This document shows, one piece after another, positions 1,251-36,608 of a DNA stretch of 36,608 nt (position 1 is the first letter of the stretch; every line of letters begins with the position of its first letter). The stretch lies in contig JAJPEP010000089.1 of NCBI GenBank assembly GCA_021166845.1, positions 1-36,608 on the forward strand, written 5' to 3'. Origin of the DNA: Thiobacillus sp. GTDB taxonomy: Bacteria; Pseudomonadota; Gammaproteobacteria; Burkholderiales; Thiobacillaceae. Below the pieces are notes generated by a model. That model was not told the origin of the DNA, ran no database searches, and worked only from the letters and a program-made list of their open reading frames with translations. Made by a program: the position numbers and the translations under genes.

Positions 1251-4154
1251 TTACTGGCACGCCTCGCATTCCTCGAACCCCGGATCTCCCGGACGCATGG
1301 TGCAGGCCTTGCCTTCGACCTCCGGCACCGGCAGGTTGGCCGCCGCCGCGTCGATCGCGCTCGGTGCAGCGCCCATGCCGCCGCCGACGTGGGCCGACAC
1401 GGCGTTGAGCTCGCCGCCCTTGCCGGTGGATTTCTCCGCGGACGTCGCGCCCAGGGTGCGCAGGTAGTAGGTGGTCTTGAGGCCACGCACCCACGCCAGC
1501 TTGTAGATGTCGTCGAGCTTCTTGCCGGAGGCGCCGGCCATGTAGATGGTGAGGCTCTGCGCCTGGTCGATCCACGTCTGGCGGCGGCTGGCGCATTCGA
1601 TCAGCCACTTAGGCTCCATCTCGAACGCGGTGGCGTAGAGCGCGCGCAGCTCGGCCGGGATGCGGTCGATGCGGGCGAGGCTGCCGTCGAAGTACTTGAT
1701 GTCGGCGACCATGACCTCGTCCCACATGCCGAGCTTCTTCAGGTCAGACACGAGGTACTTGTTGACCACGGTGAATTCGCCCGACAGGTTCGATTTCACG
1801 TACAGGTTCTGGTAGGTCGGCTCGATCGACGCGGAGACGCCGACGATGTTGGCGATGGTCGCGGTCGGCGCGATCGCCAGGCAGTTGGAGTTGCGCATGC
1901 CGTACTGGGCGATCCTCTGACGCAGCGCGTCCCAGTCGAGCGTGGCCGACGCATCGACTTCGAGGTAGCCGCCGCGCTCTTCGAGCAAGAGACGATTCGA
2001 GTCGTGCGGCAGGATGCCGCGGCTCCACAGGCTGCCTTCGTAGCTGGAGTAGCGGCCGCGCTCGGCGGCGAGCTCGGTCGACGCCCAGTAGGCGTAGTAG
2101 GCGACGGCTTCCATCGAGCGGTCGGCGAACTCGACCGCCGCATCAGAAGCGTAGGCAACGCGCAGCTCCTGCAGCGCGTCCTGGAAGCCCATGATGCCCA
2201 GGCCCACCGGACGGTGCTTGAGGTTGGCGTTGCGCGCCTTGCCGACGGCGTAGTAGTTGACGTCGACGACGTTGTCGAGCATGCGCATCGCGGTGTGGAT
2301 CGTCGCCTTCAGCTTGTCGAGATCCAGTTGCCCGTCTTTCAGATGATTGACGAGATTGACCGAGCCGAGGTTGCACACGGCGACCTCAAAGTCGTTGGTG
2401 TTGAGCGTGATCTCGGTGCACAGGTTGGAGCTATGCACGACGCCGACGTGCTGCTGCGGGCTGCGGATGTTGCACGGGTCCTTGAACGTGATCCAGGGGT
2501 GGCCGGTCTCGAACAGCATCGACAGCATCTTGCGCCACATCTGCAGGGCGGGGATGCGCTTGTACAGCTTGATCTCGCCACGGTCCGCCTTGCGCTCGTA
2601 TTCGGTGTAGGCCTCGGCGAACTTGCGGCCGTAGAGGTCATGCAGGTCGGGCACGTCGTTCGGCGAGAACAGCGTCCAGTCGCCGCCTTCCATCACGCGC
2701 TGCATGAAGAGATCGGGAATCCAGTTCGCGGTGTTCATGTCGTGGGTGCGGCGGCGGTCGTCGCCGGTGTTCTTCCTGAGGTCGAGGAACTCCTCGATGT
2801 CGAGGTGCCAGGTCTCGAGGTAGGCGCACACCGCGCCCTTGCGCTTGCCGCCCTGGTTCACCGCGACGGCGGTGTCGTTGACGACCTTGAGGAAGGGGAC
2901 GACGCCCTGCGACTTGCCGTTGGTGCCCTTGATGCGGGCACCCATCGCACGCACCGGGGTCCAATCGTTGCCGAGGCCGCCGGCGTACTTCTGCAGCATG
3001 GCGTTTTCCTTGATCGCCTGATAGATGCCGTCGAGGTCGTCGGTGACGGTGGTCAGGTAGCAGGAAGACAGCTGGGAATGCCGCGTGCCGGCGTTGAACA
3101 GAGTCGGCGTCGAGCTCATGAAGTCGAAGCTGGACAGCACCTGGTAGAACTCGATGGCACGCGCCTCGCGGTCGATCTCGTTGATCGCAAGCCCCATCGC
3201 CACGCGCATGAAGAAGGCCTGCGGCAGTTCGATGCGGCTTTCTTCAATATGCAGGAAATAACGGTCATACAGGGTCTGCAGGCCAAGGTAGCCGAACTGG
3301 AAGTCGCGGTCGGCATCGAGCACGGCGGCCAGCCGCGCCAGGTCAAACTGGGCGAGCTTCTCGTCGAGCAGTTCGGCGGCGATGCCTTTCTTGATGTAGG
3401 CGGGGAAATACTCGGCGTAGCGCGCGCCCATCTCGGCCTGCGTCACCGTCTCGCCCAGCACTTCGTGGCGGATGGAGACGAGCAGCAGGCGGGCGGTGAC
3501 CAGCGAATACGCCGGATCCTGCTCGATCATCGAGCGCGCGGCCAGCACCAGCGCCTTTTCGACTTCGGCCATCGGCACGCCGTCGTAGAGGTCGCGCAGC
3601 ACGGTCTGCATGATCGGCTCGGCGCGCACGGTCTCGCCCAGGCCGGCGCAGGCGTCGGCCAGCAGGCCGGCCAGACGCGCGGTGTCGAGCGGCTTTTTCA
3701 CGCCGTCCTCGATCACATGGAGCTGCACTTCGGGCACGCTGGCGGCCTTCTGCGCGGCGCGTTCCTGAGTGCGCTTTTCGCGGTACAGCACATAGGAACG
3801 CGCGACTTCGTGCTCGCCCGAGCGCATCAGCGCCAGCTCGACCTGGTCCTGGATGTCCTCGATGTGGAAGGTGCCGCCATTCGGATTGCGCCGCATCAGC
3901 GCCGCCGTCACCTGATTGGTGATCGACTCGACCAGCTCGCGGATGCGCGCCGAGGCCGCGGCCTGCCCGCCCTGCACCGCGATAAAGGCCTTGGTCACGG
4001 CGATGGCGATCTTGTTGGGCGCGAAGCCCACCACAGCGCCGTTGCGGCGGATGATCCTGTAGTCGGCGTAGCGCGCGTCGACCACCACCGGTTCGGCGGT
4101 TTCGAGCGACGGGACGGCGGGGGATACGGCGGATTCGGTGGCGACGTTCAACAT
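1251..4154 (-). CDS. nrdA: Ribonucleoside-diphosphate reductase alpha subunit (class Ia R1)
   Basis: The catalytic subunit of ribonucleotide reductase, 967 residues. It has two ATP-cone regions in tandem at about 45-140 and 155-250, which set dATP inhibition and overall activity, followed by the 10-stranded barrel. Active-site cysteines are C365 (LSSCYL), C579 with E581 (NLCTEI) and C594 (AVCNLGSVNL). The radical-transfer tyrosine region PTYQNLY is present, and the C-terminal redox pair C963/C966 (CEAC) sits in the last five residues. The ATG at 4152-4154 has AAGGAG 8 nt upstream. A double ATP cone makes it longer than the E. coli enzyme (about 760). Transcription probably starts at the strong promoter at 4303-4330 and may read on to nrdB. 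Confidence 0.97.
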   Translation of the reverse strand: MLNVATESAVSPAVPSLETAEPVVVDARYADYRIIRRNGAVVGFAPNKIAIAVTKAFIAVQGGQAAASARIRELVESITNQVTAALMRRNPNGGTFHIEDIQDQVELALMRSGEHEVARSYVLYREKRTQERAAQKAASVPEVQLHVIEDGVKKPLDTARLAGLLADACAGLGETVRAEPIMQTVLRDLYDGVPMAEVEKALVLAARSMIEQDPAYSLVTARLLLVSIRHEVLGETVTQAEMGARYAEYFPAYIKKGIAAELLDEKLAQFDLARLAAVLDADRDFQFGYLGLQTLYDRYFLHIEESRIELPQAFFMRVAMGLAINEIDREARAIEFYQVLSSFDFMSSTPTLFNAGTRHSQLSSCYLTTVTDDLDGIYQAIKENAMLQKYAGGLGNDWTPVRAMGARIKGTNGKSQGVVPFLKVVNDTAVAVNQGGKRKGAVCAYLETWHLDIEEFLDLRKNTGDDRRRTHDMNTANWIPDLFMQRVMEGGDWTLFSPNDVPDLHDLYGRKFAEAYTEYERKADRGEIKLYKRIPALQMWRKMLSMLFETGHPWITFKDPCNIRSPQQHVGVVHSSNLCTEITLNTNDFEVAVCNLGSVNLVNHLKDGQLDLDKLKATIHTAMRMLDNVVDVNYYAVGKARNANLKHRPVGLGIMGFQDALQELRVAYASDAAVEFADRSMEAVAYYAYWASTELAAERGRYSSYEGSLWSRGILPHDSNRLLLEERGGYLEVDASATLDWDALRQRIAQYGMRNSNCLAIAPTATIANIVGVSASIEPTYQNLYVKSNLSGEFTVVNKYLVSDLKKLGMWDEVMVADIKYFDGSLARIDRIPAELRALYATAFEMEPKWLIECASRRQTWIDQAQSLTIYMAGASGKKLDDIYKLAWVRGLKTTYYLRTLGATSAEKSTGKGGELNAVSAHVGGGMGAAPSAIDAAAANLPVPEVEGKACTMRPGDPGFEECEACQ

Positions 4155-5515: not shown

Positions 5516-8003
<2,488 letters not shown>

Positions 8004-8157
8004 GAAGACGCTGACTTAATCCAGAATTGTTTATCAGGTTCATTTCATTCAACCGTATGCTGCGGTAGGAGGGCCGCCCCCCGGGCCTAAGCCGTGGTGG
8101 TTGCAGCAGTGCGAAATTCGGGGCGAGGGCACCCCTCCATGTCACGGCGGCGGGAAT

Positions 8158-16331: not shown

Positions 16332-16460
16332 GGGGTCAGGGGTCAGGGGTCAGGGGTCAGGGGTCAGGGGTCAGGGGTCAGGGGTCAGGGGTCAGAGAAT
16401 TATAGGGCGCGGCCTTGGCCGCTCACTCCCTGAATCCTGAATCCTGAATCCTGAATCCTG
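16332..16460. repeat. Heptad tandem repeats flanking a palindrome, copy A
   Basis: Nine perfect tandem copies of GGGGTCA (16332-16394) are followed by a short palindrome, GCGGCC-TT-GGCCGC, and then four copies of TGAATCC (16431-16458). The reverse complement of TGAATCC is GGATTCA, a two-base variant of GGGGTCA, so the element is a degenerate inverted repeat built from one heptad family. It fills the gap between the leuA stop and the cupredoxin gene. Compare copy B at about 19659-19755. Confidence 0.85.
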
Positions 16461-25809: not shown

Positions 25810-25995
25810 ATGGAATGGCGAGATCGAATTGCCAGCGACCCCGCCGTGCTGGCCGGCAAACAAGCAACCCCTCCTTGCCATCCCCCGCACCCAGGCTTGC
25901 AAGTGCCCGTCGCATACAGCACACTTCATCAAACAACAAAAACAACCGGCGCGGAGAATCCGAATGAAAACGAACAAGCGACCCGGAACACTTGA
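25810..25995 (+). pseudogene. Remnant of a DUF433 (antitoxin-like) gene
   Basis: After a good AAGGAG, the first 18 codons read MEWRDRIASDPAVLAGKQ, very like the start of DUF433 proteins (typically '...ITVDPAVLVGKPVIKGTRI'). The similarity stops abruptly at that point, and the rest of the 61-codon frame (Pro/Thr/Asn-rich) is unrelated. The gene seems to have lost everything after its first 55 bp. DUF433 proteins are often antitoxins for PIN-like partners, so this could be the scar of a second module. The tail of the frame overlaps the WYL start by a few bases. Confidence 0.6.
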
Positions 25996-26957
25996 GCAAA
26001 CTCGACGAAATCTATCGCCTGCACCGTCTGCTGGATGGACGGCGCACCGGGCTCCCCCGCGCCGCGCTCATCGCTGAGCACGGCTTTTCGCGTTCCACCC
26101 TCACCCGCCTGATCGCCGACCTGCGCGACCGCCTCGGCGCCCCGCTCATCCATGACAGCGAACGCGGCGGCTATCGCTACGACACCGCCGACGGCAGCCA
26201 CGCACTCCCCGGCCTGTGGTTCACCCCCGCCGAACTGCAAGCCCTCGTCACGCTGAAACACCTGCTCGCCAATCTGGAGCCGGGACTGCTCGACGATCAC
26301 CTGCGGCCGCTGCAAGCCCGCATCGACAAGCTGCTGGACAGCAACCACCTGGGCGCGGGCGAGGCCGCGCATCGCATCCGCATCCTTGCCGCCGCCGCCC
26401 GCCAGAAAAACCTCCGCCACTTTCAAACCATCGCCGGCGCCGTCCTGCAACGCCACCGCCTCAAGATCGACTACTACAACCGCGAGCGCGACCAAACCAG
26501 CACCCGCGAAGTCTCCCCGCAACGCCTCGCCCACTACCGCGACAACTGGTACCTGGACGCTTGGTGTCACGACAAAAAAGGCCTGCGCATCTTTGCCGTC
26601 GAATGCATCCGCGCAGCCGTGCCGCTCGCCAAGCCCGCCAAAACCGTTGCCGAATCCGCCTTGAACCGCGAACTCGCCAGCAGCTACGGCATCTTCGCCG
26701 GCCAGCCCCACGCCATCACCGTCCTCGTGTTCACCGCCAAGCGTGCCCGCTGGGTCGCCGAAGAAATCTGGCACCCCGAACAAGAAAGCCGTTGGCTGGA
26801 AGACGGTCGCTACGAATTGCGTCTACCGTATTCGGATGAGCGTGAACTGCTTATGGATATCCTCAAATATGGGGCGGATGTGGAAGTGATTGAGCCAAGC
26901 ACGTTGCGGGAGGGGGTCAGACAGCACTTGGAAAAGGCAGCAAGCCAGTATCGGTGA
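25992..26957 (+). CDS. WYL-domain transcriptional regulator next to the cas operon
   Basis: A 321-residue regulator: an N-terminal winged helix-turn-helix (about 1-65, with RAALIAEHGFSRSTLTRLIADLRDRLG), a WYL domain (about 140-215, with the name motif W186-Y187-L188 in RDNWYLDAW) and a C-terminal WCX domain (about 235-315). WYL domains sense nucleic acids or nucleotides, and such proteins frequently control CRISPR-Cas and other defence loci. The frame opens with TTG at 25992; no ATG in frame is better placed, and the ribosome site is weak (GGA). The palindrome at 27065-27080 is a plausible operator. Confidence 0.88.
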   Translation: MSKLDEIYRLHRLLDGRRTGLPRAALIAEHGFSRSTLTRLIADLRDRLGAPLIHDSERGGYRYDTADGSHALPGLWFTPAELQALVTLKHLLANLEPGLLDDHLRPLQARIDKLLDSNHLGAGEAAHRIRILAAAARQKNLRHFQTIAGAVLQRHRLKIDYYNRERDQTSTREVSPQRLAHYRDNWYLDAWCHDKKGLRIFAVECIRAAVPLAKPAKTVAESALNRELASSYGIFAGQPHAITVLVFTAKRARWVAEEIWHPEQESRWLEDGRYELRLPYSDERELLMDILKYGADVEVIEPSTLREGVRQHLEKAASQYR

Positions 26958-26971
26958 CAGCCCGTATTAGG

Positions 26972-26995
26972 ACTGCGGGGCTTTCGCCCCGCAGT
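26972..26995. terminator. 10-bp hairpin after the WYL gene; likely terminator and possible 3' hairpin of the crRNA-like RNA
   Basis: A perfect 10-bp stem (ACTGCGGGGC / GCCCCGCAGT) with a 4-nt loop lies 14 bp after the WYL stop and is followed on the plus strand by TCTTC, so it can end the WYL transcript. On the minus strand the loop is GAAA, a very stable GNRA tetraloop, and the hairpin then stands where the second repeat of a minimal CRISPR would be. Confidence 0.7.
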
Positions 26996-27063
26996 TCTTC
27001 ACAATGGCTTTGAATACCCCAAGTTTTTTTCAATCCGCGTGCGCAAAACTAGCTGTACACGAA
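26972..27063 (-). ncRNA. Putative crRNA-like regulatory RNA (CreR/CreA class) targeting the cas promoter
   Basis: Read on the minus strand, 27039-27028 is CGCGGATTGAAA, identical to 12 nt at the 3' end of the array repeat; only the last repeat base (27027) is changed, C to A. The handle is preceded by a weak stem, CGTG (27061-27058) with CACG (27041-27038), whose closing G stands exactly where the repeat stem ends. Next comes a 31-nt spacer (27026-26996) and the GAAA-capped hairpin. Spacer bases 1-18 (AAACTTGGGGTATTCAAA) match 27102-27085 on the same strand at 16/18, failing only at positions 6 and 9; bases 19-31 match at 0/13. In type I complexes base 6 is flipped out and does not pair. Short seed-side pairing is what repressing, non-cleaving guides show. 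Expression is unproven. Confidence 0.72.
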
Positions 27064-27064
27064 C

Positions 27065-27080
27065 CACGATTATAATCGTG
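27065..27080. promoter_or_regulatory. 16-bp perfect palindrome with TATAAT on both strands; candidate WYL operator/divergent promoter core
   Basis: CACGATTATAATCGTG is perfectly symmetrical and contains TATAAT on each strand (plus 27071-27076, minus 27074-27069). On the minus strand this -10 would start the crRNA-like RNA near 27062, about 22 nt before its handle. On the plus strand it would start toward the small frame and cas5. It is flanked nearly symmetrically by AAACTAG (27046-27052) and CTAGTTT (27096-27102). No good -35 is seen on either side, so activation or extra factors may be needed. A dimeric WYL regulator is the obvious candidate ligand. Confidence 0.55.
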
Positions 27081-27084
27081 ATTG

Positions 27085-27115
27085 TTTGAATACACCTAGT
27101 TTAACGCTTTATGTT
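27085..27115 (+). promoter_or_regulatory. Promoter region of the cas operon overlapped by the self-protospacer
   Basis: The 18-bp match to the crRNA-like spacer covers 27085-27102. A possible promoter lies on it: TTGAAT (27086-27091) and TATGTT (27110-27115), 18 bp apart, 4/6 matches each. Binding of Cascade here would cover the -35 and spacer. On the minus strand the three bases in the PAM position (27105-27103) are GTT; the usual type I-C PAM is TTC, so recognition would be suboptimal, as might suit repression. Confidence 0.5.
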
Positions 27116-27156: not shown

Positions 27157-27273
27157 ATGGGTTGGGCTGAAGTTGTACGAGAACTGAGGACACTTTTTAC
27201 CGAATTATCGGCATGGCGATTTTCTGCGCTATGCCTTCTGATCGCTTGGATCGCTTACGCGTGGTTGGCTTAA
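27157..27273 (+). CDS. 38-aa hydrophobic peptide, first frame after the targeted promoter
   Basis: A short frame from ATG 27157 with GAGG 11 nt upstream. The first 22 residues are amphipathic and charged (EVVRELRTLFTELSAWRF); the end, SALCLLIAWIAYAWLA, is long enough for one membrane helix. Size and layout resemble small membrane-active toxins of type I systems. It could be a CreT-like toxin held off by the crRNA-like RNA and Cascade, a short cas-linked membrane peptide, or a chance frame. The 167 bp between its stop and cas5 (27274-27440) contain no gene that I trust. Confidence 0.45.
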   Translation: MGWAEVVRELRTLFTELSAWRFSALCLLIAWIAYAWLA

Positions 27274-27440: not shown

Positions 27441-28097
27441 ATGAACTCGAAAACCTACGAAATCAGCTTGGAAATCGCCGGCCCCACGGCGATCTGGACG
27501 CGCCCCGATACCGGCGACTCGCCCGGCACTTACCCCGCCCCCACACGATCGGCCGCCAAGGGTATCTTCGAGGCGATCCTGTGGAACCCGGCGGTCGAAA
27601 TCGTCCCGAGCCGGGTCGAAATTTGCGCGCCGCTGGTTTATCACCACTACGCAACCAACTACGGCGGCCCGCTGCGTAAGAGCGGCCAGATCAAAGACAG
27701 CAACAACTATCAGCTATTCGCCACGGTGCTGGTCAACGTGCGTTATCGCCTTTATGCCAACCTGAATCTGGCGTCGCGCAGCGACTTCCCACCCAAGATC
27801 AGGCAGTGGCTGGAACGCACGCGCTCGCCCTGTCACGCGTTCAAGGACATTTTCGAGCGCCGCCTGAAACGCGGCCAGTGCCATTACGTTCCGAGCTTGG
27901 GCTGGCGTGAATTCATCCCCAGCTACGTCGGCGAACCGCAGGGCACACCGACACAAACCGACATCAACCTCAGCCTGCCGTCGATGCCGGATCAGATGTT
28001 CAGCAAGCCCGCTTACGGCGAGCACGCGCTGACGTATGCACAAGGTCTGGTGATCGAGTCGGGCGTGCTGGACTACGGAGCGCGCCATGCTGAATGA
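27441..28097 (+). CDS. cas5: Cas5 (type I-C, Cas5d/Cas5c)
   Basis: A 218-residue RAMP protein. In type I-C, Cas5 replaces Cas6: it cuts the repeat at the base of its stem and stays on the 11-nt 5' handle, in Cascade. Family landmarks are the N-terminal YPAPTRSAAKGIFEAILWN, the central RYRLYANL and LGWREF in place of the usual LGCREF. AAGGTGA before the ATG is a good ribosome site. Its end overlaps the cas8c start by 11 bp. It is the first recognisable cas gene behind the control region, whereas cas3 normally stands here. Confidence 0.9.
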   Translation: MNSKTYEISLEIAGPTAIWTRPDTGDSPGTYPAPTRSAAKGIFEAILWNPAVEIVPSRVEICAPLVYHHYATNYGGPLRKSGQIKDSNNYQLFATVLVNVRYRLYANLNLASRSDFPPKIRQWLERTRSPCHAFKDIFERRLKRGQCHYVPSLGWREFIPSYVGEPQGTPTQTDINLSLPSMPDQMFSKPAYGEHALTYAQGLVIESGVLDYGARHAE

Positions 28098-30159
28098 ACT
28101 CCTGCAGGCGGCGAACGCGATTCCGAGCCTGCCTGAGACACTGCACAAATCGCTCAAAACCCTGCCGAAAACGTCCGCCTACAAAGTCTTGCTTGGCGAA
28201 CAGGGCGACATCGTCGGGGTTGTGCCGTACCCAGACCCCACGCAGGGCTTGCGCAAATGGCAACCCGGCGCCAATGGCTTCAGCACGCCAATTTTCAATA
28301 GCCAGCCCCTGTATCGCATCGATCCGGACAAATCGCTACTTGATGCAGCGCGTAACGCCGACATCGCCAGTTGGGCCAAAACCTTCGGACTATTTCGCGC
28401 ACGCTGCGCCGATCTCGGCGGCTCATGGATTGACATCAAGCGCGGTGAGCTGAACGAGAAATGCCGCAAGTCGCTCGCCGACGTGCCCGCGCAATTGCAG
28501 TCGCTGTTATCCAAGGATGATCCTGACTACGCCGTGCTGCGCGCCCTGCTCGAACGCCTGCAACGCCTGACACCCGAGCGCTTCTTTCCCGAACTCGCGC
28601 GCCAACTCGAAACCCAGATGGAAAGCGCCTACGACGAAGCGCTCTTCAAGCTCTATTGCGCGGCCAGCGATGCAGAAGCCGCGAAATCCTGCAACCTGCT
28701 GCTCGACTTGCCGGACTGGGACGTGATCGGCGATTACCCCGTCACCCATGAGCGCACCACCGAGCTGCTGAACGCGTTGTTGACCAGTGCTGGATCGGGC
28801 TCGGCAAGCGCCACCAACACCGCGCCGGACGCCTATGGCCGCGCCGCAACCGGCGCCGACGAGAAATTCGCCGACGTGATCGTGCCGGGGTTGGGTAAGG
28901 TCATCCTGCGCGCGATGACCAAGGACGCGCCCTGCCAGTATCGCTACGGCAAGGCCGATGCGAACTCGTTCCTTGTAGGCAAAGACTCTCGCGAGCGCGC
29001 CAAAAGCGCGCTGGAATACCTGACTCAAGCCGGGCGCAAAGGCAAAACCTGGCAGTACCGGGGCGGTAGCCTGTTCCTGTTTTACCCCGAGCAGGAATTG
29101 AGCGTGCTGAACGACAGCGCAATCGCTGATCTGTGCAGCCTGCCGGACGACGAAGACGATGCATTCGCCGCCGTAGCGAACAAGGCAGCTACATTCGAAG
29201 CGCGTGCCGAACGCATCGCGGCGGCGCTCGAAGGCAAACCGCGCGAGTCCGAAGTCCCGGTACACCTCATCGTTCTGCGCAAGCCGGATGGCCATCGCAC
29301 CAAGCTCGTCGCGCACCACACCTTCACCATGCAGCATTTCGTCGATTCCGCGAAAGCCTGGGTTGACGGTGCAAAAACTTGTCCGCCCGTCGCCTTCGCA
29401 CGCTGGGGCAAGGCAAAGGGTGAACGCAACGACATCGTTCCCGAGCCACCGTTTCCGTATCAAGTGACGAGCTGGCTCAATACCTTCTGGGTGCGCGGCG
29501 ACGAAAATCAGGGCAAGTTCAAGACCTTTTCCCCCGAAGACGCGCTGACCCTGCTGCTGGCGTCCGACGGCACGCAAACCCAGATGGCGCGCCGCGCGCT
29601 GCGTCACGCGCTCGTGGGATGGGCAGGTTTCTTGATCGCTGCCGGCGCGCACGAACACGCTTCGCACGCTTCGACCGTATTGAAAGCCGGAGACAAACGC
29701 GCCGCCGCGCTCTCCTCGCTGCCAGCGATTCTGGCCTTGCTGCTTTTCAAATCCAAATCTCACCTCTCACGGGAGCACATCATGGCGTCACCCGCTTTTC
29801 TCGTCGGCAGGCTGCTGGCGCTGGCCGACAGTCTGCATTACCAATATTGCCAAGGCGTGCGTAACGGCCAAGTGCCGGGGCAGTTGCTCGGCAACGCGCT
29901 GATGCAGACCGCGCTGGTATCGCCAAAGTCCGCGCTCTCCATATACGGGCAGCGCATCCTGCCCTACCAAGCTTGGGCGCGTACGTGCAAGGCGTCTGGT
30001 CAGGGCCCGGAAACGCTCGCCAAATATTTCCTCTCCCAGCTAGGCGAAATATGTTCGGAAATCAACCTGCCAGACATTACTGAGCCCATCAGCGACGCAG
30101 ACAAGGCCCAGATCATCCTCGGCTATCTCGCCAAACCCTCATCGCAGCCGCAGGGCTGA
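28087..30159 (+). CDS. cas8c: Cas8c (Csd1-like) large subunit of type I-C Cascade
   Basis: A 690-residue protein, long for Csd1 (commonly about 550-620). It starts MLNELLQAANAI like Csd1 proteins. A central region has SFLVGKDSRERAKSALEYL, and the C-terminal helical part contains FLVGRLLALADSLHYQYCQG and ALMQTALVSPKSALSIY, which correspond to the 'GRLFAVLE' and following helices of the family. In type I-C this subunit recognises the PAM, and an internal start often gives a separate small subunit (Cas11c) from its 3' end. The ATG at 29782 (MASPAFLVGRLLALADS), preceded by GGGAG, is a good candidate for that internal start. GGAG precedes the main ATG. Confidence 0.85.
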   Translation: MLNELLQAANAIPSLPETLHKSLKTLPKTSAYKVLLGEQGDIVGVVPYPDPTQGLRKWQPGANGFSTPIFNSQPLYRIDPDKSLLDAARNADIASWAKTFGLFRARCADLGGSWIDIKRGELNEKCRKSLADVPAQLQSLLSKDDPDYAVLRALLERLQRLTPERFFPELARQLETQMESAYDEALFKLYCAASDAEAAKSCNLLLDLPDWDVIGDYPVTHERTTELLNALLTSAGSGSASATNTAPDAYGRAATGADEKFADVIVPGLGKVILRAMTKDAPCQYRYGKADANSFLVGKDSRERAKSALEYLTQAGRKGKTWQYRGGSLFLFYPEQELSVLNDSAIADLCSLPDDEDDAFAAVANKAATFEARAERIAAALEGKPRESEVPVHLIVLRKPDGHRTKLVAHHTFTMQHFVDSAKAWVDGAKTCPPVAFARWGKAKGERNDIVPEPPFPYQVTSWLNTFWVRGDENQGKFKTFSPEDALTLLLASDGTQTQMARRALRHALVGWAGFLIAAGAHEHASHASTVLKAGDKRAAALSSLPAILALLLFKSKSHLSREHIMASPAFLVGRLLALADSLHYQYCQGVRNGQVPGQLLGNALMQTALVSPKSALSIYGQRILPYQAWARTCKASGQGPETLAKYFLSQLGEICSEINLPDITEPISDADKAQIILGYLAKPSSQPQG
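29782..30159 (+). CDS. Possible internal Cas11c small subunit from the 3' end of cas8c
   Basis: An in-frame ATG inside cas8c is preceded by GGGAG about 8 nt upstream and would give a 125-residue helical protein beginning MASPAFLVGRLLALADS. In several type I-C systems a small subunit of about this size is translated from within cas8c and fills the belly of the complex. This is an inference from the site and size only. Confidence 0.45.
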   Translation: MASPAFLVGRLLALADSLHYQYCQGVRNGQVPGQLLGNALMQTALVSPKSALSIYGQRILPYQAWARTCKASGQGPETLAKYFLSQLGEICSEINLPDITEPISDADKAQIILGYLAKPSSQPQG

Positions 30160-30188: not shown

Positions 30189-31133
30189 ATGAACCCCAAG
30201 CCCACCTACACCAATGAAGTCGGCGGTTTCAAACGCGGCACCGGTCTGCTCGTCATTGAAGTCCGCAACTCCAACCCCAACGGCGACCCCGACCGCGACA
30301 GCGACCCGAGACAGCGCCCGGATCAGCGCGGGGAAATCTCGCCAGTTTCGTACAAGCGCAAGCTGCGTGATCTAGTCTCATGGAAAGGTGAGGTCTGGAA
30401 CGTTCTGTCAGGCGATTTGGACCTCAGCCCCGCGCACTTCGGCATCCTCGAATCGCGTGGCAGAGTTCGCACGGATATCGCCAAGCAACTCACGGGTAAC
30501 GGCCAAGCGTTCAAAGACGCCTATTGGGACGGGCGTGTGTTCGGAAATACTTTTCTCGAAAGCATGAAGGACGACGAGGCCAAGAAGCATGGCTTTACAG
30601 AGAGTGAAATTACAGAATTTAAAGCCAATGCTATCCGCACCGGATGCGTCCATTTCGGCCTCGGCCTCTCAATTGCGCCCATCGATATCGAACGCCACAC
30701 CAATACCAATATATCGGGAGTCGAAGAGGGCAAGGATCGCGGTATGGCGCCGATGGGCTACCGTTTCGTGCCGCACGGCGTCTACCTCATGCCCTTTTTC
30801 GTTAACCCCAGCGCCGCCGCGCGCACCGGCTGCACGGGCGAGGACATTGCGCTCATGCTGGAACTCATCCGCTACGCCTATCCGCACACCCGCTCTCACG
30901 CGCGCCCGGCGGTCGATCTCGCCCGCGCCTGGTACGTCGAGCATTCCGACAAGCTGGGTTCGTGCTCGGACTTCACCATCCTTGACGCGCTCGCACCGAC
31001 CCGGCTGGGCGACGCGAACACGCCATCGAAGAGCATCGCCGATTACCAGTTGCCAAATGCGTTGCCGGATGAACTGGCGAACAAGAAAGACCGGCACGGC
31101 AACCCGGCGCTGACGCTGATCGACCTGCTCTGA
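30189..31133 (+). CDS. cas7: Cas7 (Csd2-like) backbone subunit of type I-C Cascade
   Basis: A 314-residue backbone protein that binds the crRNA spacer and flips out every sixth base. Csd2 hallmarks: NSNPNGDPDRDSDPRQ near residue 28, EISPVSYKRKLRDLV, DGRVFGNTF, GCVHFGLGLS, then RFVPHGVYLMPFFVNPSAAARTGCTGEDIALM and the late RSHARPAVDLARAW. Slightly longer than most Csd2 (about 280-300). AGGAG stands before the ATG. It follows cas8c by 29 bp. Confidence 0.88.
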   Translation: MNPKPTYTNEVGGFKRGTGLLVIEVRNSNPNGDPDRDSDPRQRPDQRGEISPVSYKRKLRDLVSWKGEVWNVLSGDLDLSPAHFGILESRGRVRTDIAKQLTGNGQAFKDAYWDGRVFGNTFLESMKDDEAKKHGFTESEITEFKANAIRTGCVHFGLGLSIAPIDIERHTNTNISGVEEGKDRGMAPMGYRFVPHGVYLMPFFVNPSAAARTGCTGEDIALMLELIRYAYPHTRSHARPAVDLARAWYVEHSDKLGSCSDFTILDALAPTRLGDANTPSKSIADYQLPNALPDELANKKDRHGNPALTLIDLL

Positions 31134-31141
31134 GCACGGCG

Positions 31142-33382
31142 ATGGACTGGCTGGCGCACAGCGCGAAAGGCGGTTACCCGGCGCAAACCTACGCCGATCA
31201 TGTCGGCTGCGCCGTTTCGACGGCGTGTTGTATCGCCGCCGAAGCCAGCCACGACTTACCGCAATCGGCTCCCTTCGTCGAAACGGTCGGTCTGGGAACC
31301 GAGTTTCACGACCTGGGCAAACTCGATGAAGACAACCAATCCGTGTTGGCATCGCCGACCGGTAAAGCGCTGCCGCACGAGCACGTCGATGCCGGGACGA
31401 AGCATCTATTCGGGCTGGGCACGGATACATCGAAATTCGCCGGGATGCTGGCTTATGCGCACCATCGCGGCCTGCCTGATGTTCCCGACCAGAAAGCACG
31501 CGGCGCGACAGCCTGGCGCGGCGACGAGAAAGGCGGTCGTTTCGATCCAACCGCAGTCATTGCACGAACCAGCACGCATCTCGGCGACTATCTGCATCGC
31601 CATCACGAAGCGCTGGCGCGTTCCCCGACGATACCCAACGCGCTAACGTTCAAACCCGCCGCGCTTGACCTGCGCATGGCGCTCGGCTGTCTGGTCGATG
31701 CCGACCACAGCGACACCGCGCGGAACTACGGCGCGCCACCCATAGCCGCCCCGTTGCTTCAAGCCGAGGCGCGACTCGCCGCGCTCGACGCCTACGTCGC
31801 CGCGCTGAAATTCGGCGACACCACACGCGAAGCGGAACGCGCCGAAAACCGGCGCGCGCACTACGCTGCATGCCGCGCCGCCGACACCGCCGCTGCACTC
31901 GTCGAATGCGACAGCCCGGTCGGCAGCGGCAAGACCACAGCGGTGATGGCGCACCTGCTTCGCGCGGCACAGGCGAAGAATCTGCGCCGTGCGTTCGTCG
32001 TCCAGCCCTTCACCAACATCATCGATCAATCCGTAGACACCTACCGCAAGGCGCTCGTCCTGCCCAATGAGATCGCCGATCAAGTCATCGCCGCACACCA
32101 CCATAAAACCGACTTCACCAACCCGCTCACGCGCGCGCTGACGACCCGCTGGCACGCGCCGGTTGTCGTCACCACCGCCGTGCAGTTTTTCGAGACGCTG
32201 GCGAGCAACCACCCAGCGAACCTGCGCAAATTACATCAGGTGGCGCGTTCGGCGATTTTCATCGACGAGGCACACGCCGCGTTACCCGCGCACCTCTGGC
32301 CGCTCGCCTGGCAATGGCTGCGTCGGCTCGTCGATCACTGGGGCTGTCACATCGTGCTCGCATCCGGCTCACTCGCCCGTTTCTGGATGCTTGATGAATT
32401 CTATCCCCGGCTCAAAGACGCGCCGCCGCCTAGAAAACGCCTGCCCACGCCCTTGGTCGGCACCGCGCTACGGGCGCAGCTCGGCGTCAGCGAAACCCAC
32501 CGCATCCGCTATCGCCAGCATCACGACGCGCTTGACCTCGACGCACTGCTCGATTTCCTGACCGCGCGGCCCGGCCCGCGCATCGCCGTTTTCAACACCG
32601 TGCAGACCGCCGCCGTCGTCGCCCGAGCGCTCGCGGTGAAGTCAGGCCGGGGAAAAGTCGAACACCTCTCGACGGCGCTCACCCCGCACGACCGCGAGAA
32701 AACGCTGGCCCGCATCAAGGCGCGCCTCGCCGACAAAGACGATCAGGACTGGACGCTCGTCGCCACCTCGCTGGTCGAGGCGGGCGTTGATCTTTCCTTC
32801 CGCTCGGGCGTGCGCGAAGCGGCCAGCCTTGCCAGCCTGCTCCAGCTTGGTGGGCGCGTGAACCGGCACAACGAATACGACGAAGCGGAAGTCTGGTCGG
32901 TGACACTGCGGCAGAGGGCAGGTATCCGGCAAAATCCCGCCATGCGGGCGTCTGCATCCACGCTGGAAAAGCTGTTCAAGCGGGATCGCGTCACACCGGA
33001 CGCCTGCACCGAGGCGCTAAAACTCGAAGTGCGTGAGCAAGGCAACCCGGAGCAGGTCGATACGCTCTTCAACATGGAAAGCGCGAAACAGTTTGTGTCC
33101 GTCGCAGATAACTTCAAAGTCATCGCGTCCGACACCGTGACCGTACTGATGCCCGGCTCCTTCCTCGATGCCATTCAGGACGGCGCACGCCCGGACTGGA
33201 AATCCCTGCAAAGCCACTGCGTGCAAATCTGGGCGACCAAGAAGATCGACTTTGGCCTTGCCCCCATCGACGCTTATCCCGGCCTGTTCGCCTGGAATCT
33301 GGCTTACGACGACTTCATCGGCTACATGGCTGGCGCGCTTGATGTGTGCGCGGTGAAGTCTGGTAAAACACTGATTGTCTGA
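31142..33382 (+). CDS. cas3: Cas3 nuclease-helicase (HD domain first)
   Basis: A 746-residue effector nuclease. The HD nuclease domain (about 1-200) has H6, H20, the HD pair H56-D57 (EFHDLGK) and a following HH in AYAHHRG. The superfamily-2 helicase follows, with Walker A SPVGSGKTTA near 258-267, the DEAH box FIDEAHA near 372-378 and motif VI-like QLGGRVNRHNEY around 565. Cascade recruits it to unwind and degrade the target strand. It starts 8 bp after cas7. In common type I-C loci cas3 lies upstream of cas5; here it follows cas7. After its stop the operon is interrupted by an inverted toxin-antitoxin pair. Confidence 0.92.
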   Translation: MDWLAHSAKGGYPAQTYADHVGCAVSTACCIAAEASHDLPQSAPFVETVGLGTEFHDLGKLDEDNQSVLASPTGKALPHEHVDAGTKHLFGLGTDTSKFAGMLAYAHHRGLPDVPDQKARGATAWRGDEKGGRFDPTAVIARTSTHLGDYLHRHHEALARSPTIPNALTFKPAALDLRMALGCLVDADHSDTARNYGAPPIAAPLLQAEARLAALDAYVAALKFGDTTREAERAENRRAHYAACRAADTAAALVECDSPVGSGKTTAVMAHLLRAAQAKNLRRAFVVQPFTNIIDQSVDTYRKALVLPNEIADQVIAAHHHKTDFTNPLTRALTTRWHAPVVVTTAVQFFETLASNHPANLRKLHQVARSAIFIDEAHAALPAHLWPLAWQWLRRLVDHWGCHIVLASGSLARFWMLDEFYPRLKDAPPPRKRLPTPLVGTALRAQLGVSETHRIRYRQHHDALDLDALLDFLTARPGPRIAVFNTVQTAAVVARALAVKSGRGKVEHLSTALTPHDREKTLARIKARLADKDDQDWTLVATSLVEAGVDLSFRSGVREAASLASLLQLGGRVNRHNEYDEAEVWSVTLRQRAGIRQNPAMRASASTLEKLFKRDRVTPDACTEALKLEVREQGNPEQVDTLFNMESAKQFVSVADNFKVIASDTVTVLMPGSFLDAIQDGARPDWKSLQSHCVQIWATKKIDFGLAPIDAYPGLFAWNLAYDDFIGYMAGALDVCAVKSGKTLIV

Positions 33383-33407
33383 ATGCCGTGTATGGCGAGT
33401 TCGAGAA

Positions 33408-33716
33408 TCACCGCCGCCCCACCCAATATCCCGGGCGGCGGCTTTGGTTGGCAATGGCGATGATGACGATCTTCCCGGGATAAATCCGGTACACCAGATC
33501 GAAGGGGAAACCATGCAAAGGAATGCTGCGCGCCTGACACTGAATAGGCTTGCACTGAATAGGCTTGCCAATAGCAGGGTGTTCATGCAGAAGACCAAGC
33601 GTCTGTTTGGTAGCAGTTGCGAATTGCCTGCTGATGTTTGCCCCAGCGTGAACGGCGTAGTAATCCAGTGCCTGATCGAATTCCGTTTCGGCCAGTGGGT
33701 GCCAAACGTGCTTCAC
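33408..33716 (-). CDS. RelE/ParE-family toxin
   Basis: A 102-residue toxin of the RelE/ParE fold, beginning VWHPLAETEFDQALDYYA and ending LVYRIYPGKIVIIAIANQSRRPGYW, which is the typical beta-hairpin and tail. It probably poisons gyrase or cuts mRNA; the sequence does not decide. It contains KPIQCKPIQC, coded by a perfect 15-bp tandem duplication (33539-33553 and 33554-33568), which lengthens a loop by five residues and may impair it. Its ATG overlaps the antitoxin stop. It lies on the strand opposite to the cas genes. Confidence 0.88.
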   Translation of the reverse strand: MKHVWHPLAETEFDQALDYYAVHAGANISRQFATATKQTLGLLHEHPAIGKPIQCKPIQCQARSIPLHGFPFDLVYRIYPGKIVIIAIANQSRRPGYWVGRR

Positions 33717-33949
33717 GCGCCGGCTTTGCGGAGTTTCTCGTCTATCCTTGCAAACACTTCTTCGCTCGGGATCAGCTCGACCGTACCCGCGTCGATTTCA
33801 GCGATGCGTCGGGCGATTTCGGCATCCCAGGCAGCCTTTACCTCTTCGCGCGGGATGGCGCTGACCCAAAGCCAGTCAGCCAAGTCCGCACGTTCTTCGG
33901 GCGGGAGTTTCATGGCTTCAGCCTTGATTTGTTCGGCGGTCAATGACAT
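33713..33949 (-). CDS. Addiction-module antitoxin component (RelB-like, CHP02574 type)
   Basis: A 78-residue antitoxin with the pattern of the 'putative addiction module component' family: LTAEQIKAEAMKLPPEERADLADWLWVS, then an acidic helical tail containing WDAEIARRIAEIDAGTVELIPSEEVFARI. The ATG at 33949 is chosen because GGAG lies 6 nt before it; an in-frame ATG at 33961 adds four residues and has no such site. The stop overlaps the toxin start (ATGA). The pair is inserted between cas3 and cas4 in inverted orientation. Confidence 0.87.
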   Translation of the reverse strand: MSLTAEQIKAEAMKLPPEERADLADWLWVSAIPREEVKAAWDAEIARRIAEIDAGTVELIPSEEVFARIDEKLRKAGA

Positions 33950-33979
33950 GGGAGTCTCCATTGCGTTGGGCTAGTGCAC

Positions 33980-34630
33980 ATGGAACAAACGATACGCCAC
34001 GGCCCCACTATGTTCAACCCTGACCCCGTCCCCCTTTCCGCCCTCAACCACTGGGCGTACTGTCCGCGCCGTTGCGGACTAATTCACATGGAAGGCGAGT
34101 TCACCAACAACATTCACACTGCACGCGGCAATGCCGAACATGAAAAAGTGGATGGCATCCATCACGAAACCCACAGTGACCGGCGTAGCGAGACGGCCTT
34201 GCCGGTCTGGTCGGATCGCGTTGGTCTTATCGGGAAATGTGATGTGGTGGAATTTCTCGCCGACGGCACGCCTTACCCTGTCGAATACAAGCACGGCCCA
34301 AAACGAAAATGGCTGAATGACGATCTCCAGCTCGCCGCGCAGGCGATGTGCCTGGAAGACATGCTCGGGCGCCCGGTACCCAAAGGCGCGATCTTCCATG
34401 CCAGCAGTCACCGGCGGCGGGAGGTCTTCATCACGCCGGAGTTGAGGGCACGGGTAATCGATACCGCGAATGCGATCCGCGCGATGCTTGCCTCGGGCGT
34501 GCTGCCGCCACCGGTCAACGATTCACGATGCAGGGAATGTTCCCTGAAAGAGATCTGCCAGCCTGAAGCCGTCGCCGATCGAATCAGGCAGCGACAACAA
34601 CAGCACAGACTGTTCGACCCGGAGGCATGA
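33980..34630 (+). CDS. cas4: Cas4 RecB-like nuclease with Fe-S cluster
   Basis: A 216-residue adaptation nuclease that trims prespacers and checks their PAM before Cas1-Cas2 insert them. RecB-family residues: H in RGNAEHEKVD, D in GKCDVVEF and the E-x-K of YPVEYKHG. Four iron-sulphur cysteines are split as usual: the first in HWAYCPRRCGL and three in SRCRECSLKEIC. The start is uncertain: GTG 33974, ATG 33980 or ATG 34010 (MFNPDPVPLSAL, the position at which most family members begin). No good ribosome site is seen, perhaps because the toxin-antitoxin insertion separated it from its original upstream context. Confidence 0.9.
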   Translation: MEQTIRHGPTMFNPDPVPLSALNHWAYCPRRCGLIHMEGEFTNNIHTARGNAEHEKVDGIHHETHSDRRSETALPVWSDRVGLIGKCDVVEFLADGTPYPVEYKHGPKRKWLNDDLQLAAQAMCLEDMLGRPVPKGAIFHASSHRRREVFITPELRARVIDTANAIRAMLASGVLPPPVNDSRCRECSLKEICQPEAVADRIRQRQQQHRLFDPEA

Positions 34631-34631
34631 A

Positions 34632-35666
34632 TTGCATACCATCCAGAACACACTCTACGTCATGACCCCTCAGGCGTATGCCCATCTTGAAAACGCCACC
34701 GTGCGTATCGACGTGGAACGCGAAAAGAAACTCCAGGTGCCGCTGCACCACCTGGGCGGGTTGGTCTGTTTCGGCAACGTCATGGTCTCGCCGGCGCTGA
34801 TGCATCGTTTGGCCGACGAGGGGAAGTCTCTGGTGCTGCTGGACGACAGCGGCCGCTTCAAGGCCCGGCTCGAAGGCCCGGTTTCTGGCAACATCCTTTT
34901 GCGCCAGGCTCAGCACCAGCAGGCAGGCGATGCCGCTTTTACGCTCGAATTCGCCCGCGCTGTGGTCGCAGGAAAACTCAAAAATAGTCGCAGTGTATTG
35001 CAGCGCGGCGCGCGAGAAGCCGCAGACGAAACCGAAGCGGCCCGGCTCACGCGCACCGCCGACAACCTGGCCGCCTCACTGCGCGCTGTCACCGTTGCAA
35101 ACACGTTGGACGAGCTACGCGGCGTCGAAGGCGAAGCCGCACGTGGCTACTTCGCTGCCGCCAACCTCGTCGTCAAGCCCGCCATGCGTGAACACTTCCA
35201 GCTCAACGGCCGCACCCGTCGCCCGCCACTGGACCGTTTCAACGCGCTGATTTCCTTCCTCTATGCCATGCTCATGAACGACTGTCGTTCCGCGCTGGAA
35301 GCCGTCGGGCTCGATCCACAGCTCGGATTTCTGCACACGGTACGCCCCGGCCGTGCCGCGCTCGCACTGGACTTGCAGGAGGAATTCCGCGCTGTGCTGT
35401 GCGACCGGCTGGCGCTCACCCTCATCAATCGCGGCCAGATCGGACCTGCCGACTTCGACCTGCGCGAAGGCGGTGCGGTCATGCTCAACGATAAAGGCCG
35501 CCGCGCCGTCGTAACCGCCTGGCAAGAACGCAAACAAGAAGAAATCACCCACCCGCTCACCGAAAGCAAACTGCCGTTTGCCTTGCTACCCTTCATTCAG
35601 GCGCGCTTCATCGCGCGAACCCTGCGCGGTGAAATGGAAAGCTACCTGCCATTTGTGGCCAGATAA
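34632..35666 (+). CDS. cas1: Cas1 integrase
   Basis: A 344-residue spacer integrase, type I-C form. The metal-binding triad is visible as E166 ([13 protein letters not shown]), H235 (LHTVRPGR) and D247 ([10 protein letters not shown]). The start is the TTG at 34632: GGAGG lies 6 nt upstream and the frame gives the normal N-terminus [12 protein letters not shown]. cas4 ends 1 bp earlier, so cas4 and cas1 are coupled. Confidence 0.95.
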
Positions 35667-35671
35667 GCATC

Positions 35672-35962
35672 ATGCTCATCATCTTCACCTACGACGTTTC
35701 CACAGAAACAGCCGCCGGGCGCAAGCGCCTGCGACGCGTCGCCAAGGCCTGCGAGCGCGTCGGCCAGCGAGTACAAAAATCGGTTTTCGAATGCACAATC
35801 GATGAAATGCAGTTCGAACAATTTGAGCGCGAATTGCTGGATGAAATAGACCCGTCTAAAGACAATCTGCGCTTCTACCGCATCACCGAGCCCATCGAGC
35901 TTCGCGTCAAACAACACGGCTGCTTCCGGTCCGTCGATTTTGAAGGCCCCTTGGTGATATGA
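35672..35962 (+). CDS. cas2: Cas2
   Basis: A 96-residue ferredoxin-fold protein that bridges the two Cas1 dimers. It begins [22 protein letters not shown] with the conserved Asp (D8), followed by [12 protein letters not shown] and the strand KDNLRFYRI. Length and N-terminus are typical of type I-C Cas2. It follows cas1 by 5 bp and ends 178 bp before the first repeat. Confidence 0.95.
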
Positions 35963-36140: not shown

Positions 36141-36608
36141 GCATCGCCCGGCCTCACGGCCGGGCGCGGATTGAAACGAAGTAGTCCGTGCTGGTGCTGT
36201 ACGCATCGCGGGCGCATCGCCCGGCCTCACGGCCGGGCGCGGATTGAAACGCCATAACGCTCCCAGTAGTACTTGTCGCCGGCGTGCATCGCCCGGCCTC
36301 ACGGCCGGGCGCGGATTGAAACCCACTGCCAGCAGGGCAGGAACCCCCCCACGAGGAAGCATCGCCCGGCCTCACGGCCGGGCGCGGATTGAAACATTTC
36401 CGTCTTGAGTTGATCCGCCCGCGCCTGCACGCATCGCCCGGCCTCACGGCCGGGCGCGGATTGAAACAGATAACCGTGGTCATCGCGCGTGATCGCCGCG
36501 CAGCATCGCCCGGCCTCACGGCCGGGCGCGGATTGAAACACCTACATTAATATCGGCGTCCGGCATCCGGACGAAGGCATCGCCCGGCCTCACGGCCGGG
36601 CGCGGATT
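36141..36608 (+). CRISPR. CRISPR array, 37-nt repeats, seven copies to the window edge
   Basis: Repeats start at 36141, 36214, 36286, 36359, 36431, 36503 and 36577; the seventh is cut by the window end. All visible copies are identical. The repeat has a 4-nt start (GCAT), a 9-bp perfect stem CGCCCGGCC/GGCCGGGCG with loop TCAC, and the tail CGGATTGAAAC. Cas5d cleavage at the stem base would leave exactly this 11-nt tail as the 5' handle. Six spacers of 36, 35, 36, 35, 35 and 37 nt lie between them. The ATTGAAAC end is typical of type I-C, but 37 nt is longer than the common 32. Lack of any degenerate copy at the leader side agrees with an active array. Confidence 0.98.

Follow-up and report, generated by a model that had tools for sequence, protein, structure and literature searches.

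A candidate Cascade-guided repression module for a small membrane protein gene beside cas5 in type I-C CRISPR-Cas loci

In a type I-C CRISPR-Cas locus of Thiobacillus sp., the stretch upstream of cas5 contains a short minus-strand element that resembles a crRNA gene reduced to a single repeat, and its guide matches a site close by. Which gene would such a guide control, the cas operon or the small unannotated open reading frame (ORF) located between the matched site and cas5? We addressed this question in the 36,608-nt stretch of contig JAJPEP010000089.1 (assembly GCA_021166845.1) that carries the locus, denoted the window below, and in related loci of other genomes, for which our own G and L handles are given where needed.

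A crRNA-like element upstream of cas5

The window encodes the complete type I-C gene set (Cas5c, Cas8c, Cas7, Cas3, Cas4, Cas1c and Cas2) in the order WYL, cas5, cas8c, cas7, cas3, 199-aa ORF, cas4, cas1, cas2, array (Table 1). Cas5, Cas7 and Cas8c score below the NCBIfam type I-C cut-offs and Cas1c above; at E <= 1e-30, the divergent Cas5 was found in 1 of 398 genomes of a phylum sample, the window's own. The 199-aa ORF inside the cas operon (33375-33974) has no PADLOC or NCBIfam match at E <= 0.001, and the WYL protein also aligns to the N-terminal part of a Cas3c model of PADLOC (PDLC01766), a hint that WYL and Cas3 may be fused in other genomes. Elsewhere in the window, tandem 7-nt repeats AGGGGTC (16338-16411) are seen, in agreement with a direct-repeat search.

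Table 1 Features of the type I-C locus and of the element upstream of cas5 (window positions)
Feature	Position	Strand	Basis or remark
WYL-domain protein	25992..26957	+	
3' hairpin of the crRNA-like RNA, in second-repeat position	26972..26995	-	10 bp, GAAA loop; fold
Guide positions 1-18 (position 1 = 27026)	27009..27026	-	16/18 vs target
Repeat-derived handle	27027..27039	-	27039-27028 identical to the 3' end of the array repeat; final base A in place of C
Imperfect stem directly 5' of handle	27040..27062	-	fold; 10/23 identical to G006
Putative -10 of guide RNA promoter, TATAAT	27069..27074	-	sequence; inferred
Target site (protospacer)	27085..27102	-	overlaps putative -35 of small-gene promoter
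Putative small-gene promoter, TTGAAT, 18 nt, TATGTT	27086..27115	+	inferred from conservation
PAM position, GTT	27103..27105	-	sequence
Small ORF, 38 aa, MGWAEVVRELRTLFTELSAWRFSALCLLIAWIAYAWLA	27157..27273	+	candidate toxin; unannotated
Cas5c, divergent	27441..28097	+	
Cas8c, 690 aa, divergent	28087..30159	+	
Cas7	30189..31133	+	
Cas3	31142..33382	+	
Cas4	33974..34630	+	
Cas1	34632..35666	+	
Cas2	35672..35962	+	
CRISPR array with a 37-nt repeat, continuing past the end of the window	36141..36608	+	

A first-pass annotation, made from the letters of the window, had described the element as 12 nt of the repeat 3' end preceded by a stem that closes at the same base as in the real repeat, a guide matching a nearby stretch at 16 of 18 positions and then not at all, and a GAAA-capped 10-bp hairpin in place of a second repeat. 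Each of these components was recovered. A pattern search places CGCGGATTGAAA at minus 27039-27028 and otherwise only in six repeats of the array, which makes 7 matches in the window where 0.04 would be expected. Re-alignment of the guide AAACTTGGGGTATTCAAA (27026-27009) with the site AAACTAGGTGTATTCAAA (27102-27085) gives 16/18, with mismatches at positions 6 and 9 and no agreement at 19-24, and the pattern common to guide and site, with at most one mismatch allowed, matches only these two places in the window and none in 100 shuffles. The hairpin arms are ACTGCGGGGC-GAAA-GCCCCGCAGT, and the fold of 26966-27062 has z = -2.83, equalled by 2 of 200 shuffles. The 5' stem, which closes just before the handle, is imperfect in the window and weak and broken in G006, the other genome of the genus that has the module pattern; it is likely the Cas5c processing site. 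The TATAAT is also present on the minus strand of G006; no good -35 for a guide RNA promoter was seen in the window. The sequence supports the general description: next to the cas genes of a type I-C system stands a crRNA-like element whose repeat is degenerate and whose short seed matches a promoter region close by.

The target lies 54 nt upstream of the 38-codon ORF. The putative promoter of this ORF, which was not listed by a consensus scan of the site, has the counterpart TTGAAT, 18 nt, TATGAT in G006. Conservation between the two genomes is uneven: the handle (13/13), the guide (16/18) and the target with its PAM (20/21) are retained, whereas the stem (10/23) and the intervening stretch (11/22) have drifted.

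The PAM of the window is GTT, a feature that the first-pass annotation had not mentioned; the type I-C system used for repression in PMC10865793 takes TTC and TTT, and in G006, too, the PAM differs from TTC. Any single break at positions 1-5 or 7-11 abolishes the function of a type I-B CreA (PMC8501985), and breaks at 2-5, 7-9 and 13-17 abolish that of a type I-F CreA, whereas breaks at 10 or 12 do not (PMC10097628). Judged by these rules, the guide of the window ought to work poorly or not at all, unless base pairs at 10-18 compensate, which slightly lowers the probability that we assign to a CRISPR-repressed toxin and to its generalization below. G006 retains a mismatch at 9, although the base differs, amid a guide and target that are otherwise conserved, and the mismatch therefore appears to be tolerated.

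Small ORF, guide and target in ten loci

The 38-aa product is predicted to be a one-pass membrane protein; its structure model has helices at 3-16 and 19-37, the second hydrophobic (mean pLDDT 81, pTM 0.39). The G006 ORF is 58% identical, with 15, 8 and 23 differences at the first, second and third positions of the 38 codons, and for this one pair we obtained dN 0.39, dS 2.40 (near saturation) and dN/dS of about 0.16. On the strength of the homologues and of this ratio, a small RNA toxin devoid of a protein was set aside. The family comprises 25 database clusters of 34-91 aa, some of which are the same loci as the ten described below. Hydropathy peaks at 2.0-2.7 over 17 residues in 7/7 proteins, six from this family and one from locus L075. 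At E <= 1, there was no Pfam match for the window, G709, G539, P0009 and L075 proteins, and no NCBIfam match for those of the window, G709, P0009 and L075; the sole NCBIfam match of the five, that of the G539 protein, is far under the cut-off (E 0.08, 12 of 211 bits). Size, hydrophobicity and gene arrangement make a toxin the probable role of this predicted membrane protein.

Homologues of the small ORF were found in nine other genomes, and all ten loci adjoin cas5 of a type I-C locus (G000, which is the window, G006, G709, G539, G760, G599, G881, G882, G871 and G905); their small proteins, of 37-75 aa, are conserved and predicted to be membrane proteins. A profile search of 369 gammaproteobacterial genomes gave eight matches at E <= 0.01. 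Five were strong (E <= 1e-10; G000, G539, G709, G760 and G599), all beside cas5 of type I-C loci, a linkage (Fisher p 6e-6, with type I-C present in 35 of the 369 genomes) that is only partly independent because four of the five were in the query alignment. The weak matches G651, G817 and G806 (E 9e-4 to 6e-3), two in frames of 608 and 479 aa and one in a 27-aa frame, were rejected. In the order of G709, the search matched 2 of 9 genomes, one being in the query and the other weak (E 0.05) and inside a 609-aa frame. Further homology searches, with 5 matches in 63 genomes and 2 in 151, yielded G881, G882, G871 and G905.

All ten loci possess a crRNA-like guide divergent from the ORF, with a seed match of at least 9/10, an NTY PAM and a 3' hairpin after the guide, and the target lies 8-73 nt upstream of the ATG. 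The seed is perfect (10/10) in G760, G599, G881, G882 and G871, and carries one mismatch in the other five, at position 9 in the window and G006, 10 in G709, 3 in G539 and 8 in G905; the PAMs are TTC (six loci), GTC (two) and GTT (two). For five loci (G599, G881, G882, G871 and G905), the ORF was found first by homology and the guide was sought afterwards, and it was present in 5/5. Seven groups can be told apart among the ten guide sequences, and each of them fits its own target. When guides were swapped among loci, 6 of 90 combinations reached at least 9, all between close relatives (G000/G006, G881/G882 and G599/G905), and the other 84 stayed at 8 or below, five of them at 8; among 2000 shuffled guides, a score of 9 was reached by four and 10 by none. 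Judging from these comparisons, guide and target change together between lineages; such covariation of guide and promoter in related type I-C loci is what the first-pass annotation had proposed to look for.

Mismatches at guide positions 1-15, counted over the ten loci, are 0,0,1,0,0,6,0,1,2,1,0,5,1,2,1, with peaks at position 6 (6/10) and position 12 (5/10); in the five loci found by homology, each of these positions is mismatched in 4/5. Bases at guide positions 6 and 12 are flipped out in type I complexes. The mutants described in PMC8501985 agree with this. Drift at position 6 was allowed by design since that position lies outside the seed score and was ignored in site ranking, and position 12 entered only a tie-break, with the same weight as 13-17, and carried no weight in the first detection of G709, G539 and G760.

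We also surveyed 51 type I-C loci, some partial and some from one genome, drawn from Cas5 relatives and from those gammaproteobacterial genomes that have Cas8c (35 of 369; 40 matching rows, of which 37 regions were scanned, leaving out the window's own row and two small G654 fragments). Arrays were masked, given that they had inflated the unmasked controls with no PAM and with the seed; TTGAAA handles with a match within 400 nt were sought, and 20 permuted motifs served as the control. An exact 10-nt seed (1-5, 7-11) with an NTY PAM follows 6 of 497 handles compared to 4 of 3759 permuted ones; the window is outside these six because of its mismatch at 9. It is among the six handles with at least 14 of 15 positions and any PAM (6/497 vs 6/3759). 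The corresponding counts are 8 vs 5 for at least 13/15 with NTY and 9 vs 5 for at least 12/15 with TTC, out of the same 497 and 3759; earlier TTC counts were 5/578 vs 11/8548 and then 9/501 vs 20/10931. The G709, G539 and G760 matches from the scan lie between cas3 and cas5, each with a small-ORF homologue. Those in L062, L065 and L069, which have no GATTGAAA handle, are likely due to chance.

These data bear on two readings in which no guide is at work. The element could be a relic of an old CRISPR array or a chance similarity, as its degenerate single repeat and, in the window, its seed mismatch and unusual PAM might suggest; we consider this extremely improbable in view of the masked permuted-motif controls and the pattern counts in the window, the selective conservation of handle, guide, target and PAM in G006, and the matching of guides to targets over ten loci. 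Alternatively, the two 18-nt copies could be half-sites bound by some transcription factor, such as the WYL protein encoded upstream, a possibility raised by an imperfect inverted repeat (27046-27102) centred on the TATAAT of the window. In G006, however, this inverted repeat has not been conserved; moreover, the 12 nt of the repeat end directly adjoin one copy in crRNA register, and unrelated guide/target pairs of other species keep the same register and drift at 6 and 12, so that we give half-sites next to no credence.

Several other type I-C loci contain guide-like elements of different arrangement. L075 (3157-3306) and L076 (7639-7740) encode, beside cas5, a second, unrelated family of small proteins of about 50 aa with a hydrophobic stretch; they have in common the guide motif TGTCAGTTAGTAAT, the target motif TGTCAATTAGT and a TTC PAM, and their guide is on the ORF's own strand, downstream of the ORF. 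The handle of the L076 pair, read by eye, is degenerate. In L016, an Oscillospiraceae type I-C locus, a guide at 3714 (-) matches a TTC-flanked target at 3809 (+) at 18/19, just downstream of a promoter-like sequence that, by eye, is separate from the one before cas5; no convincing ORF was seen at the L016 target, and the controlled gene is perhaps an RNA toxin. L072 has a lone repeat with a guide at 8021 (+) and a target at 7927 (-), exact at 1-11 and with a TTC PAM, between divergent large ORFs.

Small gene or cas operon as the target

The first-pass annotation had the guide aimed at the cas operon's own promoter, and the comparison of loci does not support that part of its account. The target precedes the small ORF in 10/10 loci, and this ORF is co-directional with the cas operon in G000, G006, G709, G599 and G905 and opposed to it in G539, G760, G881, G882 and G871; several of the opposed ORFs overlap, with their 3' part, the end of cas3. 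In 8/10 loci, the module lies between cas3 and cas5, that is, inside the run of cas genes. Two Thiobacillus loci, L013 and L014, with Cas5 proteins 85% and 87% identical to that of the window, lack the whole cassette between WYL and cas5, the gap from the upstream (WYL) ORF to cas5 being 46 and 95 nt, compared to 483 in the window. L011 and L015 also have no cassette beside cas5 but, with other genes upstream, were not counted as empty sites. The module pattern is found in 2 of 56 genomes of the genus, those of the window and G006. Given this rarity and its absence from L013 and L014, the cassette looks like a discrete insert and not like an ancestral cas promoter, and the opposed ORFs in 5/10 loci, together with the two siblings devoid of the cassette, indicate that the target is the promoter region of the small gene. 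Searches for the module on mobile elements gave 0 matches to a 19-nt pattern in viral contigs, no match to the module DNA or to the G760 and G709 proteins in plasmids, and none to the G709 protein in phages.

Autorepression of the CreR type, in which the guide would repress the cas operon and the small ORF would be a passenger, nevertheless draws on two observations. First, the ORF of the window points the same way as cas5 and a scan found no terminator between them, so that repression could, as a side effect, reach the cas genes of this genome. Second, L018, a Thermoguttaceae type I-C locus with Cas5 of the same divergent group, has a guide at 3825 (-) that matches a target at 3973 (-) with a TTC PAM directly before cas5, at 15/15 scored positions and, within 1-17, with mismatches only at 6 and 12. 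From its sequence, the L018 guide is a possible CreR for type I-C, and the cas-promoter reading fits this locus better than the window because the L018 guide targets the stretch before cas5. For the module itself, we consider autorepression quite unlikely, considering the opposed orientation in half of the loci, the location inside the cas gene run in most of them, the short distances before cas5 in L013 and L014 and the fact that the guide travels with the ORF family in 10/10.

A further alternative accepts the repression and differs in the product: the small protein would be an accessory factor, for instance a membrane partner or a regulator of the Cas proteins or of adaptation, made only when Cascade is scarce. 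Its adjacency to cas5 in all ten loci would be expected of such a factor, and several family members have long C-terminal tails that seem superfluous for a simple pore-forming peptide. Strong matches, however, occur in only 5 of the 35 genomes with type I-C, and small hydrophobic peptides controlled by RNA are the shape that type I toxins take (PMC12737573). An accessory role thus appears unlikely to us, albeit worth weighing.

Proposed mechanism and relation to known systems

The reading that we favour, and that the sequence comparisons make probable, is a type I-C module akin to CreTA and CrePA, in which Cascade with its guide represses a small, probably toxic membrane protein. In this scheme, Cas5c would process a crRNA-like RNA transcribed from about minus 27062-26972, the product would be loaded into Cascade and direct it to 27085-27102, and the complex bound there would block transcription of the small gene 27157-27273. 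Pairing over about 10-18 nt would presumably be too short for Cas3 cleavage. Loss of Cascade, or its inhibition by an anti-CRISPR protein, would then lead to synthesis of the small protein and to arrest or death of the cell, which could guard the cas locus against loss or stop the spread of a phage; phages with anti-CRISPRs against type I-C would, if this is true, meet a suicide trigger. As to the broader proposition, that there is a family of type I-C guard modules in which Cascade and a crRNA-like RNA silence at least two unrelated families of small membrane toxins, such that anti-CRISPRs or loss of cas genes would cause membrane damage and abortive infection, we find the case nearly balanced and lean slightly in its favour.

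CreTA has been described for type I-B in haloarchaea (PMC8501985) and for type I-F in Acinetobacter (PMC10097628), and the module resembles both in that a degenerate mini-CRISPR within the cas locus would give rise to a crRNA-like RNA and in that the target would adjoin the promoter of the candidate toxin gene. In type I-B, CreA pairs at 1-5 and 7-11 and tolerates mismatches at 6 and 12, the two positions where mismatches peak in our loci, and H. hispanica creA has one repeat followed by a terminator where the second repeat would be, the place taken here by the hairpin (PMC8501985). With the type I-F system, the module shares a position within the cas genes, there between cas3 and csy1 and here, in 8/10 loci, between cas3 and cas5 (PMC10097628). 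It differs in its CRISPR type and in its candidate toxin: CreT toxins are small RNAs with mini-ORFs, whereas here a conserved predicted membrane protein is encoded, as the dN/dS ratio of the one pair also suggests.

In CrePA, the CRISPR effector and a crRNA-like RNA, CreA, together keep a protein gene repressed, as would be the case here, and a degenerate-repeat crRNA-like gene in the cas locus, recognized in our loci from sequence, is common to CreTA, CrePA and the module; CreP is typically a KilA-N protein that acts on FtsZ, whereas the window encodes a predicted one-pass peptide with no KilA-N domain among its Pfam and NCBIfam results (PMC12737573). For the type I-C module, a response to anti-CRISPRs is a prediction. 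CreR, described for types I-B, I-E and V-A, likewise relies on a crRNA-like RNA with limited complementarity to a promoter (PMC13131331), but CreR targets cas promoters and the site here precedes a small gene. Type I toxin-antitoxin systems share the short hydrophobic membrane peptide under RNA control (PMC12737573); their RNA pairs with the toxin mRNA, whereas Cascade would bind DNA, as the geometry of handle and seed suggests.

No type I-C case of CreTA, CreR or CrePA was found in the literature searched, although an earlier mention of type I-C mini-CRISPRs is possible. A search rule follows from the arrangement, namely, a small transmembrane ORF adjoining cas5 with a divergent lone repeat. 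A 2025 review raises the questions of whether further CRISPR types use mechanisms like CreTA and whether there are CrePA-like systems with other cellular targets (PMC12737573). The module is a candidate answer to both questions, and both become directly testable because a protein family, ten loci, their guides and their targets are in hand.
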